Shown here piece by piece: positions 15,633 to 35,115 of a stretch of 64,000 nucleotides of DNA. A model generated the notes under the pieces. It had not been told where the DNA came from and made no database searches. It worked only from the letters and a program-made list of their open reading frames with translations. Where the stretch lies: the NCBI RefSeq assembly GCF_003952425.1, contig NZ_CP034449.1, positions 1,984,001-2,048,000 of the forward strand, in the 5' to 3' direction. The position numbers were made by a program, and so were the translations under genes. Position 1 is the stretch's first letter. The number at the start of each line of letters is the position of its first letter. This stretch comes from Mesorhizobium sp. M2A.F.Ca.ET.046.03.2.1. Lineage in GTDB: Bacteria; Pseudomonadota; Alphaproteobacteria; Rhizobiales; Rhizobiaceae.

Positions 15633-17567
15633 ATGGCAATAGAGACAAAATACAATTCCGAACCCGCCTCCGAACCCGTCGCTTCCTCGTCAAATTCGGC
15701 CCGGAGTGGCATGAAGGGCGTCCTGCTTGTCATGGGGCTCTCCAGCGTCGCCGCTCTGGGAGCGGGCGCGATCAGAAACTGGGAGGCCCTCAGGGATGCC
15801 TCCGGACCCGCGATGCAGAAGGTCGAGGACGTCTCCGGAGCCCTGACGCAGAGGGTCGAGGAGGTTTCCGGAACCCTGGCGCAGAGGGTCCAGCAGGTTT
15901 CCGGAACCACGGCGCAGCGGGTCGAGGAGGTCTCCGGAACCCTGGCGCAGCGGGTCGAGGAGGGTTTCGGAGCCCTGGCGCAGAAAGTCTCTTCTGCTAT
16001 TGACAGCTGGCAAGATCAACCAGCTCAAACCATAGCCGAACCGTCCCGCGCGGTCATGCCTGGATCGGGTACGTTGGCCGCCGCTTTCACCGCACCGAGT
16101 GCCGCGCCTGTCATCCTTAGCGCTGAGGGTTCCAAAACTCCCGGAACGGGACCGGATTCGTCTCCTGCTGCGTCGATCGAAAGGAACGCAGCCCCTGCCG
16201 TCGCCACCAATTCCGAGCGCTCCGGAACACGCGGCATTGAACCAAACGCGCCAACCGGCAGCCCGTTCGGCGTCGGCGACCGCCTCAAGCTCGCGTTCTA
16301 CGAGCGAGTCGACGTCGAGGAAGACAAGTGGGGAGGCACGTCCTCGGCCTCGGCCCTGGGCGGCATCCTGCAGCGTCCGGAACTGAGCGGCGAATATACT
16401 GTTCAGGAGGACGGCACGATTTCCTTGCCCTTGCTTGGCTCCGTTCCGGTCGCCAACCGGTCGGCGCAGCAAGTACAGGACGACCTGGTGGAAACCTTCA
16501 ACCAACTTCTTGGCCGCAAGGGGCTGGTCAACATCCTGTCGCTGGAGCGCTCGCCTATTTACGTGCTGGGGCCGGTCAAGAATCCAGGCTCGTTCAAGTA
16601 CGCGCCCGGCATGACGATCCTACATGCCGTCGCGCTGGCCGGCGGACTGAACCAGAGCTCGAGCGAGCCGTGGCAGCAGATCGAAGCCGTGCGTGAAACC
16701 CAGAAGCGGAGCGGGGCGATCGATGCCATGGTGAAACTGCTCGCGCGCGCGGCCGTCCTGGAAGCCGAGCGCGACGGGACGGCGCCCAAGATCCCGTCCC
16801 AGTTGCTGGAATTGGCCGGCCCGACCGAAGCCGCCAATCTCGTCAATGAGCAGAGCGACCGCCGTAATGCCCTCGCCATGGCCCGCAAGTATCGCGAACG
16901 CGCGAGCCTGGCGGCGCTGGAGGCAGCCAAGCAGGATGTCGTCGCGTATGGACACATGGAATCGCTGGACGAGCTCGTCAAGCTGCGCCAGGAGCGCGTC
17001 AACACCATGCAAACGCTTGTGAACCGCAAAGTTCTCAACGTGACCATGATGGACCAGGCCCAGGCCGAGCTGTCTGACGCGGAACAACGTCGGCAGGACG
17101 CCCTTAACCGGTTCTCGAGCGCCAAGCAGCGCGTCGCTTCGCTGGAGGCTGAGGTGATGCAAGCCCGCGCCGACCACACGAACGATCTTGAGGTCGAGCT
17201 TGAGACGACGGAGAATCAGATCGCGACCAATGTGCACGACTTGAACGCCAGCGAAGGCGTCCTGTACACGTTGCCGGTGACCCGCGCCCAGTTTGCGGCC
17301 CAGTTCACAGCGAACGCGAACAGGGTGACCTATCAAATCGTGCGGCAATCGCCAGCCGGGCCGGTCAGCATCGAGTCCGACGGGATGACCCTTTTGCGGC
17401 CAGGCGACCTCGTCAACATAAGCATGGACGAAAGCCAGCCAAGAGAGCCAGCCGGCTCGCCGGTTCCAACCTCGTTGCCGACCGGCGACAACCTGCCGGC
17501 CGCGAGCACTCTCAACGAAGCAGGGCCTGGGCGCGTGCTGGCTGATCAGATGATCAATCCGAATTGA
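15633..17567 (+). CDS. Exopolysaccharide export protein (Poly_export/SLBB family, ExoF-like)
   Basis: A 644-residue envelope protein. An N-terminal hydrophobic segment (GVLLVMGLSSVAALGAGA, residues about 29-46) is followed by five 11-residue repeats (64-118) and a Pro/Ser/Thr-rich linker. A polysaccharide-export domain begins with FGVGDRLKLAFYERVDVEED and includes GEYTVQEDGTISLPLLGSV. An SLBB-like region follows (ILSLERSPIYVLGPVKNPGS, YAPGMTILHAVALAGGL), then a long coiled coil and a second beta-rich segment (DGMTLLRPGDLVNISM). This is the layout of ExoF-type rhizobial EPS exporters, but the repeat-bearing N-terminal extension is unusual. ATG 15633 is preceded by AAGG. Confidence 0.88.
   Translation: MAIETKYNSEPASEPVASSSNSARSGMKGVLLVMGLSSVAALGAGAIRNWEALRDASGPAMQKVEDVSGALTQRVEEVSGTLAQRVQQVSGTTAQRVEEVSGTLAQRVEEGFGALAQKVSSAIDSWQDQPAQTIAEPSRAVMPGSGTLAAAFTAPSAAPVILSAEGSKTPGTGPDSSPAASIERNAAPAVATNSERSGTRGIEPNAPTGSPFGVGDRLKLAFYERVDVEEDKWGGTSSASALGGILQRPELSGEYTVQEDGTISLPLLGSVPVANRSAQQVQDDLVETFNQLLGRKGLVNILSLERSPIYVLGPVKNPGSFKYAPGMTILHAVALAGGLNQSSSEPWQQIEAVRETQKRSGAIDAMVKLLARAAVLEAERDGTAPKIPSQLLELAGPTEAANLVNEQSDRRNALAMARKYRERASLAALEAAKQDVVAYGHMESLDELVKLRQERVNTMQTLVNRKVLNVTMMDQAQAELSDAEQRRQDALNRFSSAKQRVASLEAEVMQARADHTNDLEVELETTENQIATNVHDLNASEGVLYTLPVTRAQFAAQFTANANRVTYQIVRQSPAGPVSIESDGMTLLRPGDLVNISMDESQPREPAGSPVPTSLPTGDNLPAASTLNEAGPGRVLADQMINPN
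15822..15986 (+). repeat. 33-bp tandem repeat encoding five 11-residue units
   Basis: Five in-frame units follow the pattern VEEVSGTLAQR (residues 64-118 of the export protein). A degenerate unit, LRDASGPAMQK, precedes them. The 11-residue periodicity fits a hendecad (right-handed) coiled coil. Near-identical DNA units imply recent expansion. Confidence 0.85.
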
Positions 17568-17584
17568 CGCCTAACAAACGGGTT

Positions 17585-17840: not shown

Positions 17841-19004
17841 GTGGCTTCAGACGAGCATGCCATGCCTCAGGATACGGTGATCGACGTTAGTGTGGAGACC
17901 TTGCAGAACATCGAGAAACTTGAGACCGATTGGAAGGAGCTCGAAGCGCGAGCCACCCACTCATTCTATCTATCCTGGTTGTGGATCGGAACGTGGCTAC
18001 GGCATCTCCCGGCGGGTGCGCAACCACACGTCTTAGTCGCTCGGACGTCAGGCAAGATTGTCGGCTTGGCGATTATTTGCCGTCGGAGGACGTGGAGTTT
18101 CGGGCCGCATGCGCGAGCGCGTTGGCTGCTCAATGAAACCGGAGACGTTCGTTTCGATCGACTGTTCATCGAGTACAACAATATTCTAGCGGAGCGATCC
18201 CTGGCCGATGCCGTTAGAGCGGCATGCCTCGAGGCCTTGGCACGTCACTTGCGCTACTCCGACCAGCTGGTGCTCTCTGGAATTGATCAGGACTTTGACT
18301 CAGCCGCTTGTCGCACCGCGGGGCGAGCTGGGTTCCTTGCCGAGGTCAAAGCGGTAGATACGGCACGATGGATCGATTTCACCAAAGTCCGCCAGAAAGG
18401 CGGAAATTACCGCGCCACGTTGGGCCGAAATACTCGTCAAGCGGTAAGCCGTGCCATGCGGTTATATGCGGAACGCGGCCCCATTGAGTTCCGGACGCAG
18501 GAAGCGACAGCTGACGCGCTCGTCGCGTTTGATTTGCTCGCCGAGCTCCATCAGGCGCGGTGGAGACATAAGGGATCCTTTGCCAACCCGAGCTTCCGTC
18601 GCTTTCACGAGGACCTTATTGCGCGGGGAGTTCCCACGGGGACCGTCCGCATCTCACGGACTTTGGTTGGGGAGCAGACAATTGGTGTTTTGTACAACTT
18701 CGTCCATGACGGGCGTGTTCTCAACTATCAAAGCGGCTTTGTGTTTGAGCGCGACGGCCGGCTCAAACCCGGGCTTATCAGCCATGTGCTGGCGATTGAG
18801 GATAGCATCGGACGCGGGGAGTGCGGCTACGATTTTCTGGCAGGCTCCGCCGGGCACAAGTCACACCTGGCCAATGCGGAGCAGCCTTTGCGGTGGATCG
18901 CGATAGGCAGAGACAGTCCAGAGCGCCGCATTGAGGCAAAGCTGCGCGGGGCCAAGGGGGTGCTGGGGACCATTGCTGCTCATGTGAGACAGGCCGCGGC
19001 TTGA
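17841..19004 (+). CDS. GNAT-fold transferase of the CelD/BcsL (Acetyltransf_6, FemAB-related) family
   Basis: A 387-residue protein with the two-part GNAT/Fem-like layout of CelD/BcsL proteins: HSFYLSWLWIGTWLRHLPAG, LVARTSGKIVGLAIICRR, DQLVLSGIDQDFDSAA, then the second half with ELHQARWRHKGSFANPSFRR, GVLYNFVHDGRVLNYQSGF and YDFLAGSAGHKSHLA. Family members are annotated as acetyltransferases in polysaccharide clusters. The superfamily also contains Fem/leucyl-phenylalanyl transferases that take aminoacyl groups from tRNA. It starts at GTG 17841, with ATG 17862 as an alternative. An odd tRNA gene lies 125 bp downstream and NRPS genes follow. The donor substrate cannot be read from sequence. Confidence 0.82.
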   Translation: MASDEHAMPQDTVIDVSVETLQNIEKLETDWKELEARATHSFYLSWLWIGTWLRHLPAGAQPHVLVARTSGKIVGLAIICRRRTWSFGPHARARWLLNETGDVRFDRLFIEYNNILAERSLADAVRAACLEALARHLRYSDQLVLSGIDQDFDSAACRTAGRAGFLAEVKAVDTARWIDFTKVRQKGGNYRATLGRNTRQAVSRAMRLYAERGPIEFRTQEATADALVAFDLLAELHQARWRHKGSFANPSFRRFHEDLIARGVPTGTVRISRTLVGEQTIGVLYNFVHDGRVLNYQSGFVFERDGRLKPGLISHVLAIEDSIGRGECGYDFLAGSAGHKSHLANAEQPLRWIAIGRDSPERRIEAKLRGAKGVLGTIAAHVRQAAA

Positions 19005-19120
19005 GATGTCGACCAAAAAGGGAGCTGCCATTCTGATCGAGTCTTTGAGGCCGGCTCTTGGACCTTGAAGCGGCAGGTCGGCTGTTTGGCAAGGGAGGCA
19101 AGGAGAGGTTGAATTTGTCT

Positions 19121-19220
19121 AATCTATGTTTCAGCGTGGCGGAATTGGTAGACGCACCGCACTGTTGATGCGACGCCGCAAGGCTTGTAGGTTCGACTCC
19201 TACCGCTGGAGCCATAGATT
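19121..19220. repeat. 8-bp inverted repeat bracketing the unusual tRNA
   Basis: AATCTATG (19121-19128) and CATAGATT (19213-19220) are exact reverse complements. They flank the tRNA and include the last two bases of its encoded CCA. They would extend the acceptor helix in the precursor transcript and could affect 3' processing. Confidence 0.6.
19130..19214 (+). tRNA. Chimeric class II tRNA with GUU (Asn) anticodon
   Basis: An 85-nt tRNA with encoded CCA. Acceptor TTCAGCG (19130-19136) pairs with CGCTGGA (19204-19210) with one U-G wobble, then G73 and CCA. The D arm GCGGAATTGGTAGACGC is typical of tRNA-Leu. Anticodon stem CCGCA/TGCGA has a C-A mismatch at 27-43, and loop CTGTTGA gives anticodon GTT (19164-19166). 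A long variable arm has stem GCC/GGC around GCAA. The T arm is GTAGG-TTCGACT-CCTAC. U1-A72, G73 and GUU are tRNA-Asn features; the body is Leu-type. Position 37 is G, whereas ANN-decoding tRNAs normally carry A37 for t6A. Annotation software may call it Asn, Leu or undetermined. Confidence 0.85.
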
Positions 19221-19625
19221 CTAAAACGCAACGTAGCGACCATAACCGATCGATAGTCAGAAGAGGTAATCCGAATTGGATCTTAACTGACGATGGCATC
19301 GCAAGCGACGCGCGGAGACTGCTTTGATCTGACGCGATTCCGCATCCAAGTAACTTCGGCCAGCAGCCTACTCGTCAGAACAGGGAGATCACTGGGCGCG
19401 AGTTCATTGCCAAGATTGGTGTCAAGATAAATTTGGCCGTTTCGCCTCCGACAGCCCCTCGCAGCAGCAGCATTTCTAGGTGGCTTTATAGCCCCCCATC
19501 CATACATCAAAATACCCACCCGCCGCTCCTTGCTTTCGCCCTTACGTGATTGTTTCATCGGGAATCGCATGAACGGCGCTGCCGTTCTTATGCGCATGAG
19601 CGTTCCCAGCGATCGGGAGCCACGT
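19215..19625. other. Intergenic or leader region before PPTase gene
   Basis: About 410 bp between the unusual tRNA and the phosphopantetheinyl transferase start. A minus-strand frame over this area (19283-19981) is a shadow of the transferase gene. In-frame alternative starts for the transferase exist at 19530 (TTG) and 19569 (ATG). No other gene or clear promoter was seen. Confidence 0.4.
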
Positions 19626-20351
19626 ATGACTTCTGTCTGCCCCGTGCTCGAGTTCATCCAATTTTCTGGCGCTCCCGTGGAGCCGGAACCGCCCCCTTCA
19701 TACTCTTTGGATAAAGTCGGGCTGAGACCCGGGATCATAATGCCGATTTTCGAGAAAGATGGTTTAGAGGTCTTGGCATTCATGCTCGACACGGAGCAGA
19801 ACGTCATCCGCGAGATAGGCGTTTGCCTCAACGAAGAGGAACGTCGGCGCGCCGATGGTTTGAGACTGGAGCGGGATCGCCGCCGCTTTGAAACTACCCG
19901 TGGGCTGCTGCGCCGGGTCCTCGCTTCCAAACTGGGAATCTCGCCGTCCGACCTCGAGATAGAATATGGAAGCCTAGGCAAACCCTACCTCTCGCGACGC
20001 ATGCCTGCTCGCGATTTGCACTTCAGCGTCTCACGATCCGGAGATGTCGCGGTCGTCGCCCTCTCGACCCGGGAGGAGGTTGGGGTGGACATCGAGGCCG
20101 TTCTCCCTGTGCCCGAAGCGGACGAGATCGCAGCGCTCTGCTTTTCCGCCTCCGAGTACCAGTCTTACACCGCCCTTGGCCCGCAAGACCGGCCGGAAGG
20201 CTTCCTCCGGCGCTGGACCCGGCTGGAGGCTGTCTCAAAGGCCCTTGGGTGCGGTTTAGGACAGCCCCTTTCTTGGGAGGAAGAGGACTGGACTTTCCAT
20301 AGCTTCGTACCGAAACCCGGGTACATCGGGACCGTGGCAGTCCGGAATTGA
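19626..20351 (+). CDS. Sfp-type 4'-phosphopantetheinyl transferase
   Basis: Converts apo carrier proteins to the holo form using CoA; the obvious client is the PCP domain of the NRPS at 21496. Sfp-family motifs are present: LHFSVSRSGDVAVVALS, the metal-binding GVDIEAVLP, and RRWTRLEAVSKALGCGL corresponding to the W-KEA-K motif, with Arg replacing the usual Lys. The N-terminal half includes NEEERRRADGLRLERDRRRF and GKPYLSRR. ATG 19626 is chosen because GGGAG lies 6 bp upstream; ATG 19569 would add 19 residues. It starts the NRPS gene set, 92 bp before the next gene. Confidence 0.88.
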   Translation: MTSVCPVLEFIQFSGAPVEPEPPPSYSLDKVGLRPGIIMPIFEKDGLEVLAFMLDTEQNVIREIGVCLNEEERRRADGLRLERDRRRFETTRGLLRRVLASKLGISPSDLEIEYGSLGKPYLSRRMPARDLHFSVSRSGDVAVVALSTREEVGVDIEAVLPVPEADEIAALCFSASEYQSYTALGPQDRPEGFLRRWTRLEAVSKALGCGLGQPLSWEEEDWTFHSFVPKPGYIGTVAVRN

Positions 20352-20443
20352 GTGGTAGTCCGGAATCGAAATGTCGGCGATGCCGTCATTCACTTACGAT
20401 GCACCACAGATAAGCGAGGAGGGCAACCAACTCGAGAGGCCCT

Positions 20444-21460
20444 ATGTTGGCGGACGTGATGCAGATCCCGGAGTTTCTCGCAGACCTCGCGGTCAAGGAC
20501 ATCAAGGTTTGGGTAGAGGGTGACCGGCTGCGCTGCAACGCCCCGGCTGGCGCACTGACTGCCGAGTCTTCCAACCAGTTGCGTGAGCGGAAGGGCGAAA
20601 TCATCGCGTTTCTGAACATGGCCACGGCGGCAGCTCAGCAACAGCCAGCAATCATTCCCCTGCAGTCTCGCGGAACACGCACGCCCATTTATGCCGTGCC
20701 CGGGCATATCGGGGCGCCCTTCTCATTCTCGGACCTGTCGAAGCACCTGGGTGGCGATCAGCCGTTCTACGCACTCCAACCGTCCGGCTTCGATGGGCAG
20801 AGCGAACCGATGGAACGCGTCGAAGATATTGCCGAGTATTTCGCCCGCCAGATCGTCGCATATCAGCCCACCGGTCCCTACATCATCGCCGGTTACTGCT
20901 CCGGCGCTGCAACCGCTCTCGAGCTGGCGAAAATCCTGCGTCAACGCGGAGCGGAGGTCCCGTGCATGGCGCTCTTTGGCCCTCTGCACCCCATCATCTT
21001 TAAGGAATTGCCGCGTCAACTATATTTCTTTGCCAATCGCACCGCCGATTCATTCCTGCGAGAGATAGCAAAGCTGCCGACCTTCGGAGCTCGTCTCCGG
21101 TATTTCGGCAGGCGTCTCCAGAACCTTGGCGGGCACGTCGGCGCCCTCGTGACCCCCAAAGAGCCTGTCACGACCGATCCGGTGCTGGCGAGCAGAGCTC
21201 GACTCAAATCCACGGCGATCACGGCTTTGCGGCGGTACATCCCCACTCCGTATTCGGGTCGAGTATTCATATTCCTTCCGAACAAGGCTTGGATGCGATC
21301 GGGTGCGGCACCGCGCCAATGGCTTCGAGTGATGCCCCAAGCCGAATTTTATTTCGGGCCCGAGGACTGCAACGATAGCCGTATGCTGGAGGAGCCGGAT
21401 GCGCCTGCCATCGCAGAACTCTATCGCCAGGCAACCCGAAGGGCTGGGCGATTGACGTGA
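20444..21460 (+). CDS. TubC-type docking domain fused to an alpha/beta-hydrolase thioesterase
   Basis: Residues about 7-58 (FLADLAVKDIKVWVEGDRLR, LRERKGEIIAFL) match the TubC N-terminal docking domain of NRPS/PKS proteins. Residues about 70-335 form a thioesterase domain (IYAVPGHIGAPFSFSDLS, FYALQPSGFDG, YIIAGYCSGAATALELA). The nucleophile position in GYCSG is Cys152 instead of the common Ser. The C-terminal segment FGPEDCNDSRMLEEP lacks the His expected before the ML motif, so the active site looks atypical. ATG 20444 has GAGAGG upstream. It probably docks with and off-loads or edits the A-PCP product; loss of hydrolase function is possible. Confidence 0.82.
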   Translation: MLADVMQIPEFLADLAVKDIKVWVEGDRLRCNAPAGALTAESSNQLRERKGEIIAFLNMATAAAQQQPAIIPLQSRGTRTPIYAVPGHIGAPFSFSDLSKHLGGDQPFYALQPSGFDGQSEPMERVEDIAEYFARQIVAYQPTGPYIIAGYCSGAATALELAKILRQRGAEVPCMALFGPLHPIIFKELPRQLYFFANRTADSFLREIAKLPTFGARLRYFGRRLQNLGGHVGALVTPKEPVTTDPVLASRARLKSTAITALRRYIPTPYSGRVFIFLPNKAWMRSGAAPRQWLRVMPQAEFYFGPEDCNDSRMLEEPDAPAIAELYRQATRRAGRLT

Positions 21461-21495
21461 TTGATCTTTGATTTCTGCACTGGGGAGCGTATCTG

Positions 21496-23508
21496 ATGAA
21501 CGAGGTCCTGCCTATCGCGGTGAAGGGCGTAGCGCTCTCCCCGCTGAAAGATGCCGATCATAAGACGCTGGTTGTCGAGTACAACGCTACGGCAGCACCC
21601 TACCCGTCGGACAGGACGATCATCGATCTCTTCCGGGACCAGGCGAGGCGCAGTCCTAACGCCGAAGCGATCCGTTTCGGCGACGCAACGCTGACGTACC
21701 GGCAGCTCGACGAACGCTCCAACCAGATGGCCATGCATCTGAGCTCGACCGGCGCTGGGCCAGGTCGGATTGTCGTTGTGTTCATGGAGCATTCCATTGA
21801 GGTCGTCGTCGCGATCTTGGGCGTCCTGAAGTCGGGCGCGGCCTACGTGCCGGTGGATGCGGCGACGCCGAAGGGGCGTCTCGCAACGATCCTGAAGGAC
21901 ATTGCCAACGGGACCGACGGGCGGGCGCCGGTGGCGATCACACAGGCGCGCCTTCAATCCGTCATTTCCCCGAACCTTGCCGACATTTTCCTGCTCGACG
22001 CCGATTTCGGGCCGATTTTGAATCAGCCGGATTCGGCCCGGCCGTCCGCTGCCACTCCGGACAGCGCCGCCTATATCATTTTCACTTCCGGCTCGACCGG
22101 CACGCCCAAGGGCGTTGTGATCGAGCACCGGAACCTGGTGAACTACATCTGGTGGGCCGCTCGGGTGTACGGTTCCAGCGAAGGTGACGCATGGCCCCTT
22201 TTCTCATCCCTGGCCTTCGACCTGACCGTTACCACGCTCTATACGCCACTCGTCACCGGCGGCCGCATCGTGGTCTATCGCGGTGATCCCGGAGTCCAGA
22301 GCATGGTCGTGCTCAAGGTCATCGACGACAATGCCGTCAATATCATGAAGCTGACGCCGGCGCATCTCGCGATGATCCGCGACCGCAATCTCGAGACCAC
22401 AAGGCTGCGCAAGTTCATCGTGGGCGGCGAGGACTTCAAAACCGAATTGGCTCGCGATATCACCAACGCCATCCCCCATCCCATCGAGATCTACAACGAG
22501 TACGGACCAACCGAAGCCACGGTGGGCTGCATGATTCACCGTTTCGACATCGACCGGGATCAATCCGCATCGGTGCCGATCGGCGTTCCGGCCGCCAATG
22601 CGGGCATCTACGTCCTCGACAAAGCACATCGACCGGCCGCCCCCGGCACCATCGGTGAGATGTTCATTGCCGGCGACGGTCTCGCGAGGGGCTATTTCAA
22701 TCGCCTTGACCTGACAGACGAGCGTTTCCTTACGGTCACCGATCCTCGCGATGGGTTTTCGAAACTGCGGCTGTACAAGACCGGGGATCTCGCCCGCTGG
22801 AACTCGGAAGGGCGCCTGGACTTTCTCGGCCGCGCCGATCATCAGGTGAAGATCGGTGGCGCACGTGTCGAGCTGGGCGAGATCGAAGCCCGGCTTCTCA
22901 AGCATCCGCACGTTCAGGAATGCGCTGTCACCGCCATCGCCAACCCGGCGACGACACCAAGGACGGTCGAAACGGGCGATCTCAAACCGCCAGCGGCAGA
23001 AGACGGCATCGCGCGACTTGTGGCTTACTATGTCTCGTCGAAACCCCTGACCGTCGCGGAGCTGCGCGCGCACCTCGCCGAAGAACTCCTGGGATCCATG
23101 ATTCCGACGCACTACGTCTGCCTCGAACGGATGCCGCTCACGTCCAACGGCAAGATCGACCGCTGGTCGCTTCCCGAGCCGACGGCGGAGAACTTCCAGC
23201 CTGCGCAAGAATTCGCCGCCCCGTTGACGGAGACCGAGAAGACGCTGGCCGCGCTGTGGTGCGATCTCCTCAAGGTCGAGGCAATCGGCCGTCGCGACAA
23301 CTTCTTCGACTTGGGCGGGGAGTCGCTCCTGGTGATGCGGGCGGTGGCGCGCATGCGCAAGATCTTCGGCGTGGACGTGCAGCTTCGCAATCTCTTTGAG
23401 CGCCCGACGCTCGCCGAACTGGCGGAAGCGATCGACGGAATGCGTTGGGTGGCAAATTCCAAAGGCTCCCCACTCTCGGAGGGACCGAGAGAGGAGATCG
23501 AACTCTAG
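21496..23508 (+). CDS. NRPS adenylation-PCP module, predicted Asn-activating
   Basis: A 670-residue stand-alone module without a condensation domain. Adenylation core motifs are intact: A3 FTSGSTGTPKGV, A5 NEYGPTEATVG, A7 LYKTGDLARW, A8 GRADHQVKIGGARVELGEIE and A10 NGKID. The PCP site is DNFFDLGGESLLVMR, with Ser as the pantetheine attachment site. Reading the specificity pocket by alignment to PheA gives D-L-T (FDLTVT), K (MKLTP), I-G (FIVGG), E (YNEYG), V-G (ATVG) and K: DLTKIGEVGK, a recognised Asn code. ATG 21496 is preceded by GGGGAG. It lies between the thioesterase and acyl-CoA dehydrogenase genes on the same strand, so Asn-S-PCP may be oxidised or transferred in trans. Confidence 0.9.
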   Translation: MNEVLPIAVKGVALSPLKDADHKTLVVEYNATAAPYPSDRTIIDLFRDQARRSPNAEAIRFGDATLTYRQLDERSNQMAMHLSSTGAGPGRIVVVFMEHSIEVVVAILGVLKSGAAYVPVDAATPKGRLATILKDIANGTDGRAPVAITQARLQSVISPNLADIFLLDADFGPILNQPDSARPSAATPDSAAYIIFTSGSTGTPKGVVIEHRNLVNYIWWAARVYGSSEGDAWPLFSSLAFDLTVTTLYTPLVTGGRIVVYRGDPGVQSMVVLKVIDDNAVNIMKLTPAHLAMIRDRNLETTRLRKFIVGGEDFKTELARDITNAIPHPIEIYNEYGPTEATVGCMIHRFDIDRDQSASVPIGVPAANAGIYVLDKAHRPAAPGTIGEMFIAGDGLARGYFNRLDLTDERFLTVTDPRDGFSKLRLYKTGDLARWNSEGRLDFLGRADHQVKIGGARVELGEIEARLLKHPHVQECAVTAIANPATTPRTVETGDLKPPAAEDGIARLVAYYVSSKPLTVAELRAHLAEELLGSMIPTHYVCLERMPLTSNGKIDRWSLPEPTAENFQPAQEFAAPLTETEKTLAALWCDLLKVEAIGRRDNFFDLGGESLLVMRAVARMRKIFGVDVQLRNLFERPTLAELAEAIDGMRWVANSKGSPLSEGPREEIEL

Positions 23509-23583
23509 CTTGCCGGAATGCCCCGGCCTTCGGCACCGATCCAGGCGGTGCCTTTGCATTGGATGCATGCAGAGCGGACGAAG

Positions 23584-24756
23584 ATGATGGACAAAGCTTG
23601 GGTATCGGCACGAGAACCCGGACTGCCTTGGGTGGCGGCGGAATATGAGCTCTTGCGCGACCAAGTGCGCCGGTTCGTCGATGAGGAAATCAAGCCCTGT
23701 GCGGATCCCTGGGAAGAGAACGGATTCATTCCTCGTCCGATCCTGCGCCGCATGGGCGAACTCGGCTTCTTCGGCATCCGCTACCCTGCCGAGTATGGTG
23801 GCGCCGAGATGGACGCGGTCGCATCAACGGTCTTCGCCGAGGAGCTCGGGCGCTCGACCTACGGCGGCGTCGCCGATGCAATGCTGGTCCATGCCGACAT
23901 GGCTTCCTTATACGTCTTTCATGACGGCACCAAAGCCCAGCGGGCGCGCTGGATGCCGGGCATAATCAGCGGCGAGGTGATCACCGCGGTCGCCATCACG
24001 GAGCCTGATGCGGGCTCGGACGTGAAGGCCATCCGCACACGCGCGCTGCGAGATGGCGACTCCTACGTGCTCGACGGCACGAAGCTCTACATCACGAATG
24101 GCGTCCACGCGGATCTCTACTGTGTCGCAGCCAAGACTGATCCCTCGGCAGGAAGCCACGGGATCACTATGTTCCTCGTCGAGAAGGGGACGCCAGGCTT
24201 CAGTGTCGCGCGCGAGTTGGACAAGCTCGGCTGGCGTTCCTCCGATACGGCGGAGCTCGTCTTTGATGGTTGCCGCATCCCTGCCGAGAACGTGCTCGGC
24301 ACGGAGGGACAGGGCTTCTACTCCATCATGCGCAACTTCCAGAATGAGCGCCTTGTTCTCGCAGGTATGGCGATAGGGATGGCCGAGGCCGCGATCGACA
24401 TGACCCTCTCCTGGGTGAAAACTCGCCGCGCATTCGGGGGCGTCCTATGGGACATGCAGGCGATCCGACAACGCCTTGCGATGCTCTCTGCGAAAGTGGC
24501 GGCAAGCCGTGAGTTTCTCTATGCCACCGCCTGGCGCATGGCGGCGGACGATGATTGCCTGCGCGAGATCTCGATGTTGAAGGCCATCTGCGGCGAACTT
24601 GTCAACGAAGTGTTGTATGCGTGCGTGCAGTTCCACGGCGCCATGGGCGTTATGCGAGAGAGTCCGATCGAGCGCATAGCGCGTGACGCCCGCGTCTTAT
24701 CCATCGCCGGCGGCGCGACGGAGGTGATGCTGGAGGTAGTCGCCTCGATGGCGTGA
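23584..24756 (+). CDS. Acyl-CoA dehydrogenase, possibly acting on carrier-bound aminoacyl group
   Basis: A FAD-dependent acyl-CoA dehydrogenase of about 390 residues. Motifs include ITEPDAGSDVKAIRTRA and LYITNGVHADLY in the FAD/substrate region, RRAFGGVLWDMQAIRQRLA, and HGAMGVMRESPIERIARDAR near the C-terminus. The usual C-terminal catalytic Glu of medium-chain enzymes is Gly here (IAGGATEVML). A Glu in NERLVLAGMAIG occupies the isovaleryl-CoA dehydrogenase position (about residue 255). It follows the NRPS gene by about 75 bp. Relatives beside stand-alone A-PCP modules desaturate aminoacyl-S-PCP, as in prolyl-to-pyrrolyl conversion, so an Asn-S-PCP substrate is plausible but inferred. ATG 23584 or 23587 is the likely start. 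Confidence 0.88.
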   Translation: MMDKAWVSAREPGLPWVAAEYELLRDQVRRFVDEEIKPCADPWEENGFIPRPILRRMGELGFFGIRYPAEYGGAEMDAVASTVFAEELGRSTYGGVADAMLVHADMASLYVFHDGTKAQRARWMPGIISGEVITAVAITEPDAGSDVKAIRTRALRDGDSYVLDGTKLYITNGVHADLYCVAAKTDPSAGSHGITMFLVEKGTPGFSVARELDKLGWRSSDTAELVFDGCRIPAENVLGTEGQGFYSIMRNFQNERLVLAGMAIGMAEAAIDMTLSWVKTRRAFGGVLWDMQAIRQRLAMLSAKVAASREFLYATAWRMAADDDCLREISMLKAICGELVNEVLYACVQFHGAMGVMRESPIERIARDARVLSIAGGATEVMLEVVASMA

Positions 24757-25094: not shown

Positions 25095-25940
25095 TCAATG
25101 CTGTCGGTCCATGTTCAGGTGGTAGACCTGAACGTCGGTCACCTCCAGTTCGAGCGTTGCCGGGGTCGAACTGTCGTAGGCCGTGTGCCAGCCAGACGCG
25201 CTGCTGTTGGCGACACTCAGACTAATGAGCAGGGTCATGGCACCGGTCGGCACGTTCGTAGTGACGGTTCGCTTGAGCACACCATCGAAATAGAACTCGA
25301 TTGACACCCCCGGTATGTACTCCATGCCCCAGACGTGATAGCCGACCGACAGGTCCACACCAGCATCGAAGAACCGCTGCTCGTTGGTGGCAGCCAACAA
25401 AGCGTTTGCCAGCACCGCGTTGGCCGACACGGAGCCGCTGAGGAACCCGCCCTCCTGCGTGTCGATCTCGGCCCCGCCCTCGAGATGCCAGAAGCCTGGC
25501 CATCCGCCAGTGCTGACGTCCGGTTGCTTCATGCGTATCTGAGCGTAGCCACCGGCAAACGTGAACTTGCCGTGCGTGCAGATAGCGCCCGACTTCCACG
25601 TGTACCCGGCGAACCGGTTGCTTCTCGTCGCAACGATCTTCAAGCCTGATGGGCCAGTGCTGATCTGGGCCGGGTCGAAGTACTCGGCGTCGAACCCGCC
25701 AGCGTTCATCGCGGAGTACGGCGACGGCACGCTCTGCTGCCAGATACCGTTCTGGTCCGCGATCGCCGGTATCCACTTCGTGGAGTCGAGCGAGTGCTCG
25801 GTGAAGGTGTCCTCGAATATCAGCTGACTGGTAGTGTACCCAGCTGGCGGCGGCAGCGACGACCCACCGCCCCCACCACCCGTGTCGCACGAGACGATCA
25901 TAAGCGTTGTGAAAGAAATGTACTTCGATATACTTTTCAT
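25095..25940 (-). CDS. GH16 family beta-glucanase, predicted lipoprotein
   Basis: A 281-residue secreted glycoside hydrolase. A lipoprotein signal is visible (FTTLMIVSC, lipobox I-V-S-C at about residue 18), followed by a Gly-rich spacer. The GH16 fold starts at LIFEDTFTEHSLDSTKW. The active-site motif EIDTQE provides the nucleophile Glu, assisting Asp and acid/base Glu. GGYAQIRMKQPDVSTGGWPG and VGYHVWGMEYIPGVSIEFYF are typical substrate-cleft strands. It probably trims a beta-linked EPS at the cell surface, as ExoK-type glycanases do. A second, type I-secreted GH16 protein is encoded at 48481. Confidence 0.88.
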   Translation of the reverse strand: MKSISKYISFTTLMIVSCDTGGGGGGSSLPPPAGYTTSQLIFEDTFTEHSLDSTKWIPAIADQNGIWQQSVPSPYSAMNAGGFDAEYFDPAQISTGPSGLKIVATRSNRFAGYTWKSGAICTHGKFTFAGGYAQIRMKQPDVSTGGWPGFWHLEGGAEIDTQEGGFLSGSVSANAVLANALLAATNEQRFFDAGVDLSVGYHVWGMEYIPGVSIEFYFDGVLKRTVTTNVPTGAMTLLISLSVANSSASGWHTAYDSSTPATLELEVTDVQVYHLNMDRQH

Positions 25941-26559: not shown

Positions 26560-27369
26560 ATGCTCGCAGTCTTGCTCAGAGATTCGGCTATCAAGCTGTA
26601 TGTGCTGACCGCCAAGCTCGGCCTGCAGCGTCTTGCGATCTTCCACCGCGCCTATCTTGCGCTTTATCCCCTCTACAAAAGGTATTTTGAAGCAGGCCCG
26701 ATCGATCAGCTCAGGGAATTCGTGCCAGGCGGATCGCTGGTCATCGATGTCGGCGCCAATGTCGGCTTCTTCACGCTCCGCTTCGCTGAATGGGTCGGCG
26801 ACGGCGGAAAGGTGATCGCCATCGAGCCTGAGGACCAGAATTACAGCGGCCTGATTTCCGCGCTCGAGCACGCAGGTTTCCTTGGCCGCGTTGAGGCGCT
26901 GAGGGTGGTCGCCGCCGCCGAGCCCGGCACGACCTTTCTCGAAATCAACCCGCTTTACCCGTCCGACCACAAGCTTTCCCGGAACGGCACCGGCGTGCCG
27001 GTCACCGCCGTCACGCTTGACGGGCTGCTCGCGGACAAAGGAGCCCGGCGCCCGGCGCTCGTGAAAATCGATGTGCAGGGCGCCGAACTGCTGACGCTTC
27101 AGGGCATGATGGAGATCCTGAGGTTCGCCCGGCCGGCCCTGTTCGTCGAACTTTCCGACCAGGGATTGAACAAGTTCGGGGCGTCCGTTTTGGCAGTCCT
27201 GCGCCTCTTGTCGGATAACGGATACGAGGGATACTTGCTGTCCCGGACCGGGCGTCGAAAGGCAAGCCAAGCCGAGATTGAGGCCAGAACAACCGGAACC
27301 GAATCTGCCGATGTGCTGTTTCTTCCTGACAGGCCGGCGAACAGCGCTTCGCACAGCTCCTTGAACTGA
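26560..27369 (+). CDS. FkbM-family SAM-dependent methyltransferase
   Basis: A 269-residue class I methyltransferase. The SAM-binding motif is LVIDVGANVGFFTLRFAEWV, followed by VIAIEPEDQNYSGL. The FkbM signature VKIDVQGAELLTLQGM is clear. FkbM proteins in polysaccharide clusters O-methylate sugars. It is next to the EPS assembly genes but in the opposite direction to them, and is probably monocistronic. ATG 26560 lacks a strong Shine-Dalgarno; no better start is visible. The final 25 residues are Ser/Ala-rich. Confidence 0.87.
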   Translation: MLAVLLRDSAIKLYVLTAKLGLQRLAIFHRAYLALYPLYKRYFEAGPIDQLREFVPGGSLVIDVGANVGFFTLRFAEWVGDGGKVIAIEPEDQNYSGLISALEHAGFLGRVEALRVVAAAEPGTTFLEINPLYPSDHKLSRNGTGVPVTAVTLDGLLADKGARRPALVKIDVQGAELLTLQGMMEILRFARPALFVELSDQGLNKFGASVLAVLRLLSDNGYEGYLLSRTGRRKASQAEIEARTTGTESADVLFLPDRPANSASHSSLN

Positions 27370-27782: not shown

Positions 27783-29120
27783 TCAAGTCAGGAGCGGCGA
27801 CGGGGGCGATTCTTCGTTCACGACGCCGGCGGCAGAATCAGATTTTATTGCGAAGGTCAAAGTCAGGGCCGCGCACACGCCCTCGATGCTGGTGGCGAGC
27901 GTCCAGCCCAGGACCAGGCCTTCAAGTCCACCAAGCCTCGCTCCAGCTATCACCAAGCCCAGCTCCAGCAATCCGCCAAGCGCGAACCAGCGAGATGCCT
28001 TGCGCATCCTGTCGCCCAACCGCGCCAGCGTGCAGGCATGAAATTTAAGCGTTGTTCCCAGCAGGCTGAAGCCAAGGAAGCGCAGGCTCGAACCGGCGAT
28101 CTCAGCATAGGCCGGATTGAAGACCGCAAGGATCTTCTGCGAATAGGTGAAGATGAAAACGGCGCAGACCAGCGAAAAGAGCAATGACGCCATAACCGAT
28201 ACAAGGATGTCGTGTCTGGATTGTTTCGGGCTCGCTCTCACCACGGGGAACAGGACCGTGGCCATGGCCGCGGGAATCAATGAGGCGATGGTGACCAGCA
28301 TCCATAGGGATACGAAAGCGGCATTGATGGCCGGAGACAGGAGAACCAGGACAACGTAGGGCATGATGATGCCGGGAGCCTGCAAGGCCACGTCGAGCAC
28401 GTAGTGGTCGAAGACCTTGCCCCGCAGCGTACGGAGCAGCTGGAAATCGGGAGGCCCAACGAGACGACGCGCACCGCCCCGGGTCAACAGGTCCACGCCG
28501 ATGATGGACGCCAGAAGACCGGCCACCCAGCTCAGAATAAGCGCGGTATGGGAGGTGTAGCCGCCAACCGCGGCGGTGGCGATCAGCATCAGCTTCAACG
28601 TGCAGAACAGCACTTGCCGGATCATCCTGCCGGTGGCGCGCAGGGTGCCCAGGAACGCCTGGTCGGCCAAGATGGCGAGAACGGTCAGACCGCAGCCGAG
28701 GACGAATGCAACTCCCACGAACCAGCCGCCGATCAGCTCGGTAGAGCTGCCGAAATACGCATGCCCGAAGACGAACAACAAGGCCAGCCCGACCCCCAGC
28801 GCCACCCCGAAGCACAGTGCTGCGGCCACCAGGCCGCGCTCCCTGCCGGGATTCCGGACGATCTCACCCACCAGCATAGTCCCGAGTCCCGCCTCCCCCA
28901 GCGTGCCGATAAGTCCCATCACGGACAGCAAGGCAGAGGTGTTGCCGATCACCTCCGGCGGAAACAGCCGCGCCGCGAGCCACCAATAGACGAACCCGAG
29001 ACCGGCCGCCGCAACCGTTCCGGTTGCCATGGCGCCGGAATTCATCACGAACGCGGCGCTCTTTCGAAGCTCTCGGCGCACGCGAGCAAATGCCGTCCAG
29101 GAGTGGTCTACCGACATCAT
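27783..29120 (-). CDS. Polysaccharide flippase (MATE/Wzx-like membrane protein)
   Basis: A polytopic membrane protein of about 445 residues with 12-14 hydrophobic helices. It begins with a basic cytoplasmic stretch and GAMATGTVAAAGLGFVYWWL, as in Wzx/RfbX and MATE-like lipopolysaccharide exporters. The start is ATG 29120 or 29117, immediately after the stop of the upstream glycosyltransferase at 29123. Longer frames to 29516 run through that gene and are spurious. It is the last gene of the minus-strand EPS assembly block and probably flips undecaprenyl-linked repeat units. Confidence 0.85.
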   Translation of the reverse strand: MMSVDHSWTAFARVRRELRKSAAFVMNSGAMATGTVAAAGLGFVYWWLAARLFPPEVIGNTSALLSVMGLIGTLGEAGLGTMLVGEIVRNPGRERGLVAAALCFGVALGVGLALLFVFGHAYFGSSTELIGGWFVGVAFVLGCGLTVLAILADQAFLGTLRATGRMIRQVLFCTLKLMLIATAAVGGYTSHTALILSWVAGLLASIIGVDLLTRGGARRLVGPPDFQLLRTLRGKVFDHYVLDVALQAPGIIMPYVVLVLLSPAINAAFVSLWMLVTIASLIPAAMATVLFPVVRASPKQSRHDILVSVMASLLFSLVCAVFIFTYSQKILAVFNPAYAEIAGSSLRFLGFSLLGTTLKFHACTLARLGDRMRKASRWFALGGLLELGLVIAGARLGGLEGLVLGWTLATSIEGVCAALTLTFAIKSDSAAGVVNEESPPSPLLT

Positions 29121-29122
29121 TA

Positions 29123-30385
29123 CTATCCCGAACTTTGCTGTGCCGGCACCACGGACCTTCCAGGGGCTGGGCGAAGGACGTCCCGATACACCTGCTCGAT
29201 CCGGGTCACGACCGCTCCGGCCTTGAGGCGCTCGATCCTGGCGAGGCCTGTCGCCTCCAGCCGGGCGAGCAAGGCGCGGTCCTCGAGAAGTCTCTGCATT
29301 GCGCTGGCGAGGGCGTGCGCGTCGCCGCTCGGCACGAGAAGGCCTGTTTCGCCATGATCGACGATATCCGGCATGCCGCCGATGTCGGTTGCAACAACTG
29401 CCTTTCCGGACGCCATCGCTTCCATGATCACTGTCGCGCAGGCTTCTGGCCCCACCGACGGCAGCACGCCGAACAGTGAGCGCCGCCATGCATGCATGAT
29501 GGCAGAATGCGGCCACATGCTGAAGACTTGAACGTTCGGCGGAAATTTGGTTGGCGTATCGGGGACCCGGCGCCCGATCAGGACCAGTTGTGGCGCCCGC
29601 TCCAGGCTGGCATAGGCTTGCAGGAGAACGTCAATGCCCTTGAGGCGCGTCAAGTCACCGACGAACAGGATGAATCCATCCCCGGGGAGCTCCCGCAGGC
29701 AGGCGTCTTCTGGGCCAAGCACTCCGACATCGTCGGGCACGAAGTTGGGGATAACGTCGTAAGGGGCGTGGCCTTGGGTGAGTCCGTTGTGACGGGCCAC
29801 CGCGTGGCTCACCGCGATAAAGCGGTCCACCACGCGCCGAGCGGCGAAGCTCGACGCCCAATTGCCCAAGGTGGTCACAGCTGCCTTCACCGCCCCGTAA
29901 TGCCCAGTGGCGCAAGGCAGGCACTTGGCCGCCGCGGGGCCACTGCAGAGCTGGGCGCCCAAGTGCATGAAGTTCTTCTTCGCGCAGACAAGGCCGTAAT
30001 CATGGAACGTAACCACGAGGCGTGCCCCACTCAGACCTTTGAGCGGCAGGAAGGACGCGTAAATCCAGTTGTGGGCGTGAACGATGTCCGGCTCCTCCTG
30101 GGCTACCAGCCGCTTCAGGGCGAGCATCAGTTCGGGATCCGGGAAGGGCGGCGCATGGCGGCGCTCGGGATCGGCGTGAAGGCCCGACAGACGCTGGAGC
30201 GTGCCGCGCAGGCGATGCACGCGGACCGCGCCGTCCAGCTCGGTTTCGGGCGATCCGGGATGCCACAATGTCCCGACGCTGACATGATGGCCTCGCCGCG
30301 CCAGCGCCGCGCCCAGATTGCGGACGTGACGCTCCTCTCCCCCGATTACCGGAGGATAGAACTGCGATAGCAGCAGGATGCGCAT
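29123..30385 (-). CDS. Family 4 glycosyltransferase
   Basis: A 420-residue GT-B enzyme. The N-terminal MRILLLSQFYPPVIGGEERH carries the Gly-rich GT4 loop. The C-terminal half has FILFVGDLTRLKGIDVLLQA and the donor-binding EX7E region PEACATVIMEAMASGKAVVA. VHAHNWIYASFLPL and FIAVSHAVARHN match typical GT4 acceptor-side segments. It probably adds one sugar of the EPS repeat unit at the inner membrane. It is separated from the upstream membrane gene by 15 bp and abuts the flippase, so all are likely one operon. Confidence 0.9.
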   Translation of the reverse strand: MRILLLSQFYPPVIGGEERHVRNLGAALARRGHHVSVGTLWHPGSPETELDGAVRVHRLRGTLQRLSGLHADPERRHAPPFPDPELMLALKRLVAQEEPDIVHAHNWIYASFLPLKGLSGARLVVTFHDYGLVCAKKNFMHLGAQLCSGPAAAKCLPCATGHYGAVKAAVTTLGNWASSFAARRVVDRFIAVSHAVARHNGLTQGHAPYDVIPNFVPDDVGVLGPEDACLRELPGDGFILFVGDLTRLKGIDVLLQAYASLERAPQLVLIGRRVPDTPTKFPPNVQVFSMWPHSAIMHAWRRSLFGVLPSVGPEACATVIMEAMASGKAVVATDIGGMPDIVDHGETGLLVPSGDAHALASAMQRLLEDRALLARLEATGLARIERLKAGAVVTRIEQVYRDVLRPAPGRSVVPAQQSSG

Positions 30386-31159: not shown

Positions 31160-33128
31160 GCAATTCCCTCACGTCGTAGATGACGATCCAGCCATTGTCA
31201 TAGACGCGGGTGACGCCCTTGACGTCATTGAACTTGAGGAGCGCTGCACCCGAGATCGGCGTTCCCTGCCGCCGTTGCCACGGCTGAAAGTAAAAGCCGA
31301 GCACTGGTGGAGCCGTGCTCAGGCGCCGGTCAACCAGCAGGAAATCGATGTTGCTTCCCGCCAAGGCCCAGAACTCCCCTGGCCCCAATGTGTCGACCTC
31401 GAATATGCTCGCGGAATCGATGCCTTCTCTGATCTTGACCCTGACGTCCTGCCGGCCGTAGCTCGCAAGCAGAATGCTGTTGATGCGGTCGGAGATGAAG
31501 CGGTTGCCCGCGCCGAGCCATTGCTTGGCCCAGCGTGCCGTTTCGATCCCCATGGGCTCGATTGATTCCTGATCGGCCGCCACCCTATAGCGCCCATCGA
31601 TCGGATTAATCGAGGCGCTCGCGACGCCGCCCAGGACGATGACCGCCAGAGCGAGGGTCGGCGCGATGCGGCGCCACCCGTGCGGCGCGCGGCCCTGCCA
31701 GAAGTGGACGATGCTCACTGCGACGACCAGCCCAACGCCGATGAACACGAACGTTCCCATGCGGTTGCCGATTTCCCATCCGGCGCTGGTCAGTCGGAAG
31801 GCCACGGAGACCGGGAGCCCGAAGGCCAGCAAGGTGAGGAGCAGGACGCGGCTGTCACGCCAGCGGCATTTGAGAATGTCCCGGATCGGAAGCCAACCCG
31901 GCGGCCGCGCACCACCGAGCGCTGCGATGGCAAGTGACCGAAAGAATCCTGTTGCCAGTCCGAGTGCCAGCAGCAGGAGCGCCAGCAAGGTGGTCAGTTG
32001 CAGGTAGAGGGCCTTGGCCGGCGCTTGAAGATGCTCCGTCGCCGGGGTGGCGGTGCCAAGGATCATGCCAATCAATGAGTGGAAGCCGGCCCCGATCACC
32101 GGGCCGAGATAGCCTGCGAGTGGGATGCCACGGAACTGCATCCACAGGAACGGCAGGGCTATGGCCAAGATCGCCGTGAAACCCACGCCGATCCTGGTCT
32201 CAATCCGCATGGGATCGTGACGGCGCAAAGCTTCGAGACCCGCCAACGCTCCGAAATAGATGGCGGCGAAGGCGGCCGAGACGTGATGTGTGACCGCGAG
32301 GCTTGCCAACAGCAAGGCTATCAGCCCGAGCGACTTCAGCCTCGGTCGCCCGACAAGATCCTTGGACGCCGCTTCGACCGCGAAAGCCAGCACACACAGC
32401 ACGATGCCGAGGCTCTGGTAGGAGAAACTTGAGTCGAACAGGAAGAAGGTTGAGCAGCCCATGTAGGCCAGACAGGCGATAGCTGCGATACGCGGCGATC
32501 CGACGATGCTTTCGAGGAACAGAAACAGGGCACCGATGAACGTGCCCTTGAGGATGGCCAATAAGAGCGTTCCCGCCACTAACAAGGGCAGTCCCGTCAG
32601 ATCGACGATCGCCGTCGTCAAGATTTCCAGGGCGGGATACGTTGGCCCGATCGGGAAAAGCGGGTTGGGCAGGAACAGCCGGCGGGCCGTGATGAGATCG
32701 TCGGCTGCGATCCAGTGCAAGAACTCGTCGTAACCGCTGAAGCTCGTCGGGGAATAGACCTTCTTGCAATAGAACAGAGCTTCGACAAGCAGGAACAGGA
32801 GGAACAGGCGCTCACCTCGGGCTGTCGTTGGCCAGGCGATGCGGAGGCTGGTCGGAACGATCAGTAGGACCATACCGGACCAGAAGAGCGCGGGCGGCAC
32901 GTCATAGCCCCGGCGCCCGGTTGCGTGCCCGGCCACGACCAGGAGCAGAGCCGTTGCGACGGTCAGGCACAGTATCGCGATCCAACCGTATTTGGCCCGT
33001 TGCGGCGGGGCATCGGCGCTGCCGCCGTGAAGATCCGGACCGATAACGGCCGATAAGAGCCGTATCCCGGCCTGGAGTGGTTTGATCCTGGTTCTCGCGG
33101 TGAAATGAGCCTGCGTCATCAGCATCAT
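31146..33128 (-). CDS. Large polytopic membrane protein, Wzy/GT-C-like
   Basis: A 660-residue protein with 12 or more hydrophobic helices. A periplasmic-type loop near residue 130 (YSPTSFSGYDEFLHWIAADD) contains acidic residues like the catalytic loop of GT-C enzymes, and a long soluble C-terminal part includes INPIDGRYRVAADQESIEPM and KQWLGAGNRFISDRIN. Such proteins act as EPS polymerases or undecaprenyl-linked glycosyltransferases. The start overlaps the stop of the upstream GT4 gene (ATGA). I cannot decide between polymerase and GT-C glycosyltransferase. Confidence 0.7.
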   Translation of the reverse strand: MMLMTQAHFTARTRIKPLQAGIRLLSAVIGPDLHGGSADAPPQRAKYGWIAILCLTVATALLLVVAGHATGRRGYDVPPALFWSGMVLLIVPTSLRIAWPTTARGERLFLLFLLVEALFYCKKVYSPTSFSGYDEFLHWIAADDLITARRLFLPNPLFPIGPTYPALEILTTAIVDLTGLPLLVAGTLLLAILKGTFIGALFLFLESIVGSPRIAAIACLAYMGCSTFFLFDSSFSYQSLGIVLCVLAFAVEAASKDLVGRPRLKSLGLIALLLASLAVTHHVSAAFAAIYFGALAGLEALRRHDPMRIETRIGVGFTAILAIALPFLWMQFRGIPLAGYLGPVIGAGFHSLIGMILGTATPATEHLQAPAKALYLQLTTLLALLLLALGLATGFFRSLAIAALGGARPPGWLPIRDILKCRWRDSRVLLLTLLAFGLPVSVAFRLTSAGWEIGNRMGTFVFIGVGLVVAVSIVHFWQGRAPHGWRRIAPTLALAVIVLGGVASASINPIDGRYRVAADQESIEPMGIETARWAKQWLGAGNRFISDRINSILLASYGRQDVRVKIREGIDSASIFEVDTLGPGEFWALAGSNIDFLLVDRRLSTAPPVLGFYFQPWQRRQGTPISGAALLKFNDVKGVTRVYDNGWIVIYDVRELHENH

Positions 33129-35082: not shown

Positions 35083-35115
35083 GGTAGCGCTGCACGATCG
35101 AGCGATGGGACCCAA

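Follow-up and report, generated by a model that had tools for sequence, protein, structure and literature searches.

A tRNA gene with asparagine identity on a leucine-type body in an exopolysaccharide locus of Mesorhizobium

We analyzed a stretch of 64,000 nucleotides (the window) from Mesorhizobium sp. M2A.F.Ca.ET.046.03.2.1 (contig NZ_CP034449.1, positions 1,984,001 to 2,048,000), whose genome is a single contig of 7.37 Mb. Genes for a GNAT-type transferase (the GNAT), a tRNA, a phosphopantetheinyl transferase (PPTase), a docking thioesterase, an adenylation-peptidyl carrier protein (A-PCP) and an acyl-CoA dehydrogenase lie there in this order on one strand (17841-24756), within an exopolysaccharide (EPS) locus. 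We found that the tRNA carries the identity elements of tRNA-Asn on the body of a tRNA-Leu and that it recurs with the GNAT and the A-PCP protein in seven Mesorhizobium genomes. Our preferred reading, which we hold tentatively, is that it is a dedicated, probably non-decoding Asn-tRNA that would donate asparagine to a FemX-like transferase, as part of a set in an EPS locus that would use asparagine twice.

An original prediction made from the letters of this DNA had placed these six genes together, with EPS genes upstream and downstream. ARAGORN, Rfam and Pfam bear out the co-location, and Pfam matches identify polysaccharide functions on both flanks, an export protein upstream and glycosyltransferases downstream. 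The tRNA, one of two that ARAGORN finds in the window, starts 126 bases past the end of the GNAT gene and ends 2.28 kb ahead of the A-PCP start. The gene set was found again in six further species, so the arrangement is not due to chance.

Asparagine identity on a leucine-type tRNA

ARAGORN called the gene a tRNA-Asn (gtt) of 85 nucleotides, and Rfam RF00005 matched it at 45.9 bits (cut-off, 29). Its length marks it as class II, with a long variable arm. The original prediction of an Asn-type tRNA holds for the anticodon GUU, G73 and U1-A72 and fails for the body: the closest sequences are tRNA-Leu genes, and in place of the short variable loop of a class I tRNA-Asn there is a 3-bp variable arm with a GNRA-type loop. 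We thus rejected the plain tRNA-Asn reading. Compared with 47 other tRNAs read from its own genome, the locus tRNA has the D arm and 3-bp variable arm of tRNA-Leu, yet U1-A72 and G73. U1-A72 is otherwise confined there to Asn and Gln tRNAs; the five Leu tRNAs all carry G1-C72 with A73, and the Ser tRNAs have G1-C72. The genome's tRNA-Asn shares GUU, G73 and U1-A72 with the locus tRNA and its tRNA-Leu shares the class II body, D arm and variable arm, but neither combines both. This genome also carries three tRNA-Gln genes (G000:C1:4878420-4878513, 525998-526092 and 6926144-6926237), two of which are TTG and differ in sequence and N73.

The same combination is present in all seven Mesorhizobium sequences. 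Each has GUU, U1-A72 and G73 (where a tRNA-Leu would have A73), together with the long variable arm and Leu-type D arm, and base 20a is A in leucine numbering. According to PMC9976931, bacterial leucine identity includes A73, asparagine identity consists of the anticodon and G73, and amidation of Asp-tRNA-Asn by GatCAB requires U1-A72 and no U20a; the locus tRNA agrees with the latter two. It is very improbable that the tRNA is instead charged with serine (or leucine) and looks like an Asn tRNA incidentally. A class II body with G73 would suit that explanation, and PMC9976931 reports that a change from A73 to G73 can switch leucine to serine identity. However, the locus tRNA has U1-A72 and U2-G71, whereas bacterial tRNA-Ser has G1-C72 and G2-C71 (PMC9976931), and the genome's own Ser tRNAs have G1-C72. 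Serine and leucine identity in bacteria is also described there as independent of the anticodon, yet GUU is fixed amid drifting neighbors.

We found that the tRNA is strongly conserved. On average, the seven are 95.5% identical and differ at 9 of 85 alignment columns, whereas the 100-base flanks of the tRNA are 50% and 35% identical and identity at third codon positions is 77% for the GNAT and 82% for the thioesterase. Variation falls at positions 13, 33, 37, 39 and 43 and at two sites each in the loop of the variable arm and in the T loop (alignment column numbers run one higher past the D loop). All 18 pairs of the acceptor, D, variable and T stems are unchanged in 7/7, and the variable-arm loop, read by eye from the alignment, is GNRA in every sequence. 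Unpaired cells are confined to the anticodon stem, at 27-43 in five of the seven tRNAs and at 31-39 in one. Around the invariant GUU, position 33 changes from U to A in one sequence, position 37 is G in four, A in two and C in one, and position 39 differs in one. Thus the parts needed for folding and charging are kept, and positions relevant to decoding are loose.

Asn tRNAs usually need A37 (the t6A site) and U33 for decoding. A37 occurs in two of the seven (the window's tRNA lacks it) and U33 in six; the canonical tRNA-Asn of the host genome carries A37. These losses, together with the unpaired positions of the anticodon stem, argue against an additional translational Asn tRNA, perhaps one for times when the pathway drains asparagine. 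The intact cloverleaf with its encoded CCA, the normal D- and T-loop signatures and the invariant GUU are what a translational tRNA would show. We consider this explanation unlikely.

The best match to the tRNA besides itself is a tRNA-Leu(CAA) of the Mesorhizobium genome L002, 89% identical over bases 6-50. The anticodon stem of that tRNA, CCGCA/TGCGG, is identical in carrier genomes G147 and G122, and the window's is one base off (CCGCA/TGCGA). This closest non-carrier sequence comes from an array of eight tRNAs (Pro, Leu, Ser, Ser, Tyr, Leu, Cys, Ser; L002:802-1825). A plasmid search with the tRNA returned 25 records, with a top identity of 81.5% over 76% of its length and a top coverage of 87% at 77% identity. 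A minimum-energy RNA fold was uninformative, with a z of 0.09 and a predicted structure other than the cloverleaf. As a separate observation, the leader AATCTATG (19121-19128) is complementary to CATAGATT (19213-19220, overlapping the CCA end) and would form an 8-bp closing stem on the tRNA precursor; this stem is complete in G000, G139, G096 and G135, is shorter by one base in G061 and is absent in G147 and G122.

The gene set in Mesorhizobium and Bradyrhizobium

The 85-nucleotide tRNA-Asn(GTT) was found in all seven Mesorhizobium genomes that bear the GNAT (six fetched loci and the window). A search of 146 Mesorhizobium genomes for the Leu-bodied GTT pattern found it in seven, exactly those with the GNAT and an A-PCP homologue of at least 82% identity; the A-PCP E-value cut had admitted ordinary nonribosomal peptide synthetases (NRPSs) in 103 of the 146, and only the seven with matches at or above that identity were counted. 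In a set of 26 genomes, the pattern occurred in 7, again these seven, and in none of the 19 that represent GNAT relatives in other groups. Among 397 genomes drawn from the order, it occurred in one, the window's own, the other six carriers lying outside that draw. A second order-wide match (G492, one mismatch) was not counted, as GTA stands in the anticodon place. We did not see this tRNA without the gene set in the 146 Mesorhizobium genomes or in the order draw. This is clear evidence that the tRNA is a lineage-specific Mesorhizobium trait.

PPTase, thioesterase, A-PCP and dehydrogenase genes are complete in five of the seven Mesorhizobium loci, and the tRNA is retained where the PPTase match is gone (G147) or fragmentary (G122). 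In G147 and G135, two extra genes lie between the GNAT and the tRNA (L059:7410-9996 and L063:7965-10611); the L059 copies encode a Pyr_redox_3 flavoprotein and a protein weakly like carbamoyl-phosphate synthase (29 bits; cut-off, 218).

The A-domain code had been given as DLTKIGEVGK, and we obtained the same reading by script, with the ten code positions mapped from A-domain motifs. It is identical in the window protein and 25 homologues (6 Mesorhizobium and 19 Bradyrhizobium, two of them partial). Of the 31 rows compared with the reference, we omitted a short fragment and four A-PCP-thioesterase proteins that are only 28% identical and differ in kind. DLTKIGEVGK is predicted to be an asparagine code. 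In PMC12283262, this code is treated among Asp/Asn codes and also fits "Cya-3." The dehydrogenase reached the cut-off of no named family; its best match was NF042972 (306 bits versus 640), and it scored 241.5 bits against the RedW-type prolyl-PCP dehydrogenase model NF045652 (cut-off, 650). In Mesorhizobium G135 and Bradyrhizobium G171, G172 and G368, the A domain is interrupted past residue ~490 by ~300 residues (L063:1484-4453 and L121:13603-16575; also L195, L196 and L200). The L121 insert, the only one profiled, resembles a WbuX N-acetyl sugar amidotransferase (TIGR03573, 140 bits; cut-off, 203.2).

In Bradyrhizobium, we found a close A-PCP homologue in 19 of 265 genomes and the GNAT in 25; both occur in 18 of the 19, the exception being G194. 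The four cassette genes (PPTase, thioesterase, A-PCP and dehydrogenase) are complete in 17 of the 19 stretches; L183 is without the thioesterase, and L198 stops at a contig edge. Where both parts are present, the GNAT adjoins the cassette in four genomes (G171, G173, G222 and G368), lies ~9 to 36 kb away in seven and on a separate contig in six, and in G280 is 6.3 Mb away on one contig. The association gives a Fisher p of 2.5e-21, with kinship ignored. The co-occurrence of GNAT and cassette when they are not neighbors is a link that goes beyond adjacency, with kinship still included. Away from the cassette, the GNAT is often within a polysaccharide cluster (L130, L131, L133-L139, L238 and L242); in G181-G183, it lies in such a cluster with the cassette elsewhere in the genome. 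As a side observation, each of the four Bradyrhizobium loci with adjoining GNAT and cassette encodes a second A-PCP-thioesterase protein upstream of the GNAT (L182:4475-7090, L195, L199 and L200), and the A domain of the L182 copy is similar to a fatty-acyl ligase.

The original prediction had named relatives with the NRPS set and no tRNA, or the reverse, as counting against it. The former were found: the 19 Bradyrhizobium cassette stretches (9-20 kb) hold no tRNA of any kind. In addition, the GNAT occurs without a cassette in seven Bradyrhizobium genomes. The reverse, this tRNA apart from the set, was not seen in the 146 Mesorhizobium genomes or the order draw. GNAT, tRNA and A-PCP therefore do not form a single obligate system.

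We found a third asparagine signal, this one in Bradyrhizobium. AsnB, an asparagine synthase (in L182, NF006949 at 831.6 bits; cut-off, 499), lies beside the GNAT or cassette in 14 of the 18 genomes with both: in ten it is the GNAT's immediate neighbor, and in the other four it comes downstream of both parts. In four fuller loci (L232-L235), AsnB and GNAT are tail to tail. The genomes with both parts and no linked AsnB are G172, G181, G182 and G183. AsnB was found in none of the seven GNAT-only genomes within the 13-15 kb searched around each GNAT (one 30% match only), and a 56% AsnB adjoins the cassette of G194. None was found in the window or the fetched Mesorhizobium stretches. Matches at 28-34% identity (L153, L196, L202 and L236) were left out of these counts. 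Among GNAT genomes, the association of AsnB with the cassette gives a p of 0.0007, again with kinship ignored. AsnB linkage in Bradyrhizobium and Asn-type tRNA linkage in Mesorhizobium are thus suggestive of an asparagine source tied to the set in both genera. The asparagine theme of the original prediction is upheld by the constant A-domain code and by the Asn/GatCAB identity set on the tRNA, and AsnB adds a signal that it had not contained.

The same data bear on an alternative in which the tRNA serves asparagine synthesis, with Asp-tRNA amidated by GatCAB and asparagine freed for the A domain, replacing the linked AsnB of Bradyrhizobium. The two linkages were never seen together in the loci examined, and in the host genome no AsnRS exceeded its cut-off and GatB is present, as this alternative would have it. 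However, that genome already has an AsnB over cut-off, and the locus shows no enzyme that would release asparagine from a tRNA. We regard this alternative as quite improbable.

More weight goes to the explanation that the tRNA is linked to the set and has no role in its pathway, although we still judge it rather unlikely. A tRNA-Leu from a mobile array would have inserted between the GNAT and PPTase genes and changed identity, and the GNAT would use acyl-PCP or acyl-CoA, since it would have to do so in Bradyrhizobium too unless ordinary Asn-tRNA is used there. The likeness of the anticodon stem to that in the L002 array agrees with this origin. So do the window tRNA's position at the left edge of the cassette, the many Bradyrhizobium-type clusters without a cassette and the Bradyrhizobium cassette that manages without a tRNA; PMC3399842 notes that tRNAs frequently mark island boundaries. 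A tRNA without a role would not be expected, however, to be so conserved relative to its flanks, to bear three separate features that all belong to asparagine identity, to be absent from every one of the 146 Mesorhizobium genomes that lacks the set or to be kept despite the PPTase loss in G147, the fragments in G122 and the two intervening genes in G147 and G135.

Features of the locus and its surroundings (window coordinates)
Feature	Position	Strand	Evidence
Polysaccharide export protein (Poly_export, SLBB), upstream EPS gene	15633..17567	+	Pfam PF02563, PF10531
Tandem-GNAT transferase, CelD/BcsL-like, FemX-like predicted fold	17841..19004	+	PF13480, 91.5 bits
Class II tRNA, Leu-type body, Asn identity (anticodon GUU, U1-A72, G73, encoded CCA)	19130..19214	+	ARAGORN, Rfam, 7/7 Mesorhizobium loci, alignment and pair counts
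Sfp/HetI-like PPTase	19530..20351 (real start possibly further in)	+	PF01648, PF22624; NF042922 below its cut-off
Thioesterase with N-terminal TubC docking domain	20444..21460	+	PF18563 TubC_N, PF00975
Stand-alone A-PCP protein, code DLTKIGEVGK (Asn predicted)	21496..23508	+	PF00501, PF13193, PF00550; code by script
Acyl-CoA dehydrogenase-type flavoprotein, N, middle and C domains	23518..24756	+	PF02771, PF02770, PF00441
GH16 glycoside hydrolase	25095..25940	-	PF00722
FkbM-type methyltransferase	26560..27369	+	PF05050
"Flip" protein (flippase role a guess only)	27783..29516	-	No Pfam match; position conserved between cassette and group 1 glycosyltransferase
Glycosyltransferase group 1	29123..30385	-	PF00534
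Glycosyltransferase group 1/4	33125..34270	-	Pfam
Glycosyltransferase family 2	34276..35115	-	PF00535

The listed start of the "flip" gene runs into the neighboring gene, and its real start is probably later. A scan for terminator-like sites found two, both within the GNAT gene, with 1.6 expected by chance. It is possible that the tRNA is co-transcribed with the GNAT.

The transferase and a possible pathway

The GNAT had been assigned to a superfamily that includes aminoacyl-tRNA-dependent transferases, and its predicted structure agrees with this kinship: it has a tandem-GNAT FemX fold, and FemX, FemA, Sbb17/Sba18 and MprF-type enzymes top the Z list. At E <= 0.001, Pfam gave PF13480 only and no FemAB profile, and a sequence-profile search of the PDB found no relative (six weak matches, best E of 0.06). 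The closest named relatives are from Mesorhizobium. A relative ~32% identical occurs in Photobacterium alginatilyticum (L155:10001-11035), the sole record of 38 loci not named as alphaproteobacterial; we take this species to lie outside the Alphaproteobacteria.

A model for AsnRS (asparaginyl-tRNA synthetase) matched nothing over cut-off in the host genome, its weak match being the AspRS (aspartyl-tRNA synthetase) gene. A genome without AsnRS makes Asn-tRNA through AspRS and GatCAB. Since AsnRS was not found, the AspRS presumably accepts tRNA-Asn and is non-discriminating.

We propose the following pathway, in which charging of the tRNA with asparagine, its non-use in translation, the GNAT as its user, the acceptor and the dehydrogenation are inferred. 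The PPTase-primed A-PCP protein would activate free asparagine and keep it as Asn-S-PCP, the dehydrogenase may oxidize or desaturate the PCP-bound residue, and the docking thioesterase may release it. The class II tRNA would be aspartylated by a non-discriminating AspRS and then amidated by GatCAB, giving an Asn-tRNA ill-suited to decoding. The FemX-like GNAT would move asparagine from this tRNA to an amino group, either of the PCP-bound asparagine or of an EPS-pathway amino sugar or lipid. Transfer from a tRNA and a desaturated asparagine, both suggested in the original prediction, would each have a place here. The Bradyrhizobium GNAT, if tRNA-dependent, would use ordinary Asn-tRNA.

Several observations weigh against this pathway. 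The tRNA pattern is absent from 12 whole Bradyrhizobium genomes with both parts (for the other six, near loci only were covered), and no tRNA lies in 12 Bradyrhizobium GNAT stretches (13-15 kb) or in the cassette stretches described above. Mapped on the GNAT tree, the cassette shows four changes and the tRNA and AsnB one each, with too few independent pairs for a sign test; tRNA and AsnB linkage are therefore single events and not many tests. As a control, a GNAT relative (~32% identical) whose locus has neither cassette nor tRNA gave the same FemX-type ranking, and the Foldseek list places 2wpw, an acetyl-CoA tandem GNAT, among its FemX entries (ranks 6, 7 and 10). The fold therefore does not show tRNA use here, and we rejected it as proof. 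The G18-G19 and T loop of the locus tRNA look normal. We also rejected evasion of EF-Tu via the T stem: the A51-U63 pair, reported to weaken EF-Tu binding, occurs in 13 of 48 tRNAs of this genome, the locus tRNA included, and being common gives no sign of evasion (T-stem positions were counted back from the 3' end at fixed distances, a rule that misplaced one Cys tRNA). The host AspRS fits general bacterial models and falls below the "aspS_nondisc" cut-off, GatB, which exceeded its cut-off, is the sole GatCAB subunit searched, and the genome's own AsnB could feed the A domain. Being class II with G73, the locus tRNA could serve SerRS as a substrate. A promoter scan ahead of the tRNA (17500-19700) found none, with 0.8 expected by chance, and says little.

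Taken together, a fuller form of our preferred reading is possible, and we hold it with still less assurance than the pathway itself: a tRNA-Leu would have been remade into a non-decoding asparagine acceptor and become the dedicated donor to a FemX-like transferase of an EPS locus, beside an Asn-loaded carrier, and other CelD/BcsL-type GNATs of EPS loci may likewise be tRNA-dependent.

Relation to known systems and significance

The GNAT resembles the FemX/FemABX peptidoglycan transferases (Weissella FemX) in fold and differs from them in its ~10% identity, its match to PF13480 only, its EPS/NRPS setting and its putative tRNA use. PacB (pacidamycin) and Sbb17/Sba18 are aminoacyl-tRNA-dependent peptide synthases for which the portions of the literature covered report no dedicated tRNA gene; PacB adds alanine from Ala-tRNA to a PCP-bound residue (PMC4052509). 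A parallel for a reserved tRNA is the non-proteinogenic tRNA-Gly of Staphylococcus aureus, whose isoacceptors are reserved for Fem enzymes (PMC4052509). Those tRNAs have altered G18-G19 and weak EF-Tu pairs, whereas the locus tRNA has a Leu-type body, asparagine identity and normal G18-G19, and it sits within the gene set of its presumed user. The tRNAOther of Bacillus cereus is likewise a non-translational tRNA-like gene; it directly follows a thioesterase gene and lies at the edge of an island. Unlike the locus tRNA as we read it, tRNAOther is described (PMC3399842) as poorly charged and part of a regulatory RNA, with no tie there to a Fem-like enzyme or an NRPS. The trio of A domain, PCP and acyl-CoA dehydrogenase resembles that of RedW/PigA prolyl-PCP oxidation; here the code predicts asparagine rather than proline, a TubC thioesterase and the GNAT are additional, and the RedW score is far under cut-off. 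We found no report of such a tRNA in the literature searched, a scope that most subscription journals lie beyond.

If the preferred reading is true, this is a tRNA gene that lies with the gene of its presumed user outside the ribosome and whose change of identity can be read from the sequence, and the locus makes tRNA use by CelD/BcsL-type GNATs of polysaccharide loci directly testable. Three sources of asparagine, the A domain, AsnB and Asn-tRNA, are gathered around one transferase across two genera. An Asn-marked tRNA on a leucine-type body, within a set predicted to activate asparagine and next to a FemX-like enzyme, hints that a few soil and root-nodule bacteria may maintain a tRNA for making a chemical and not proteins.

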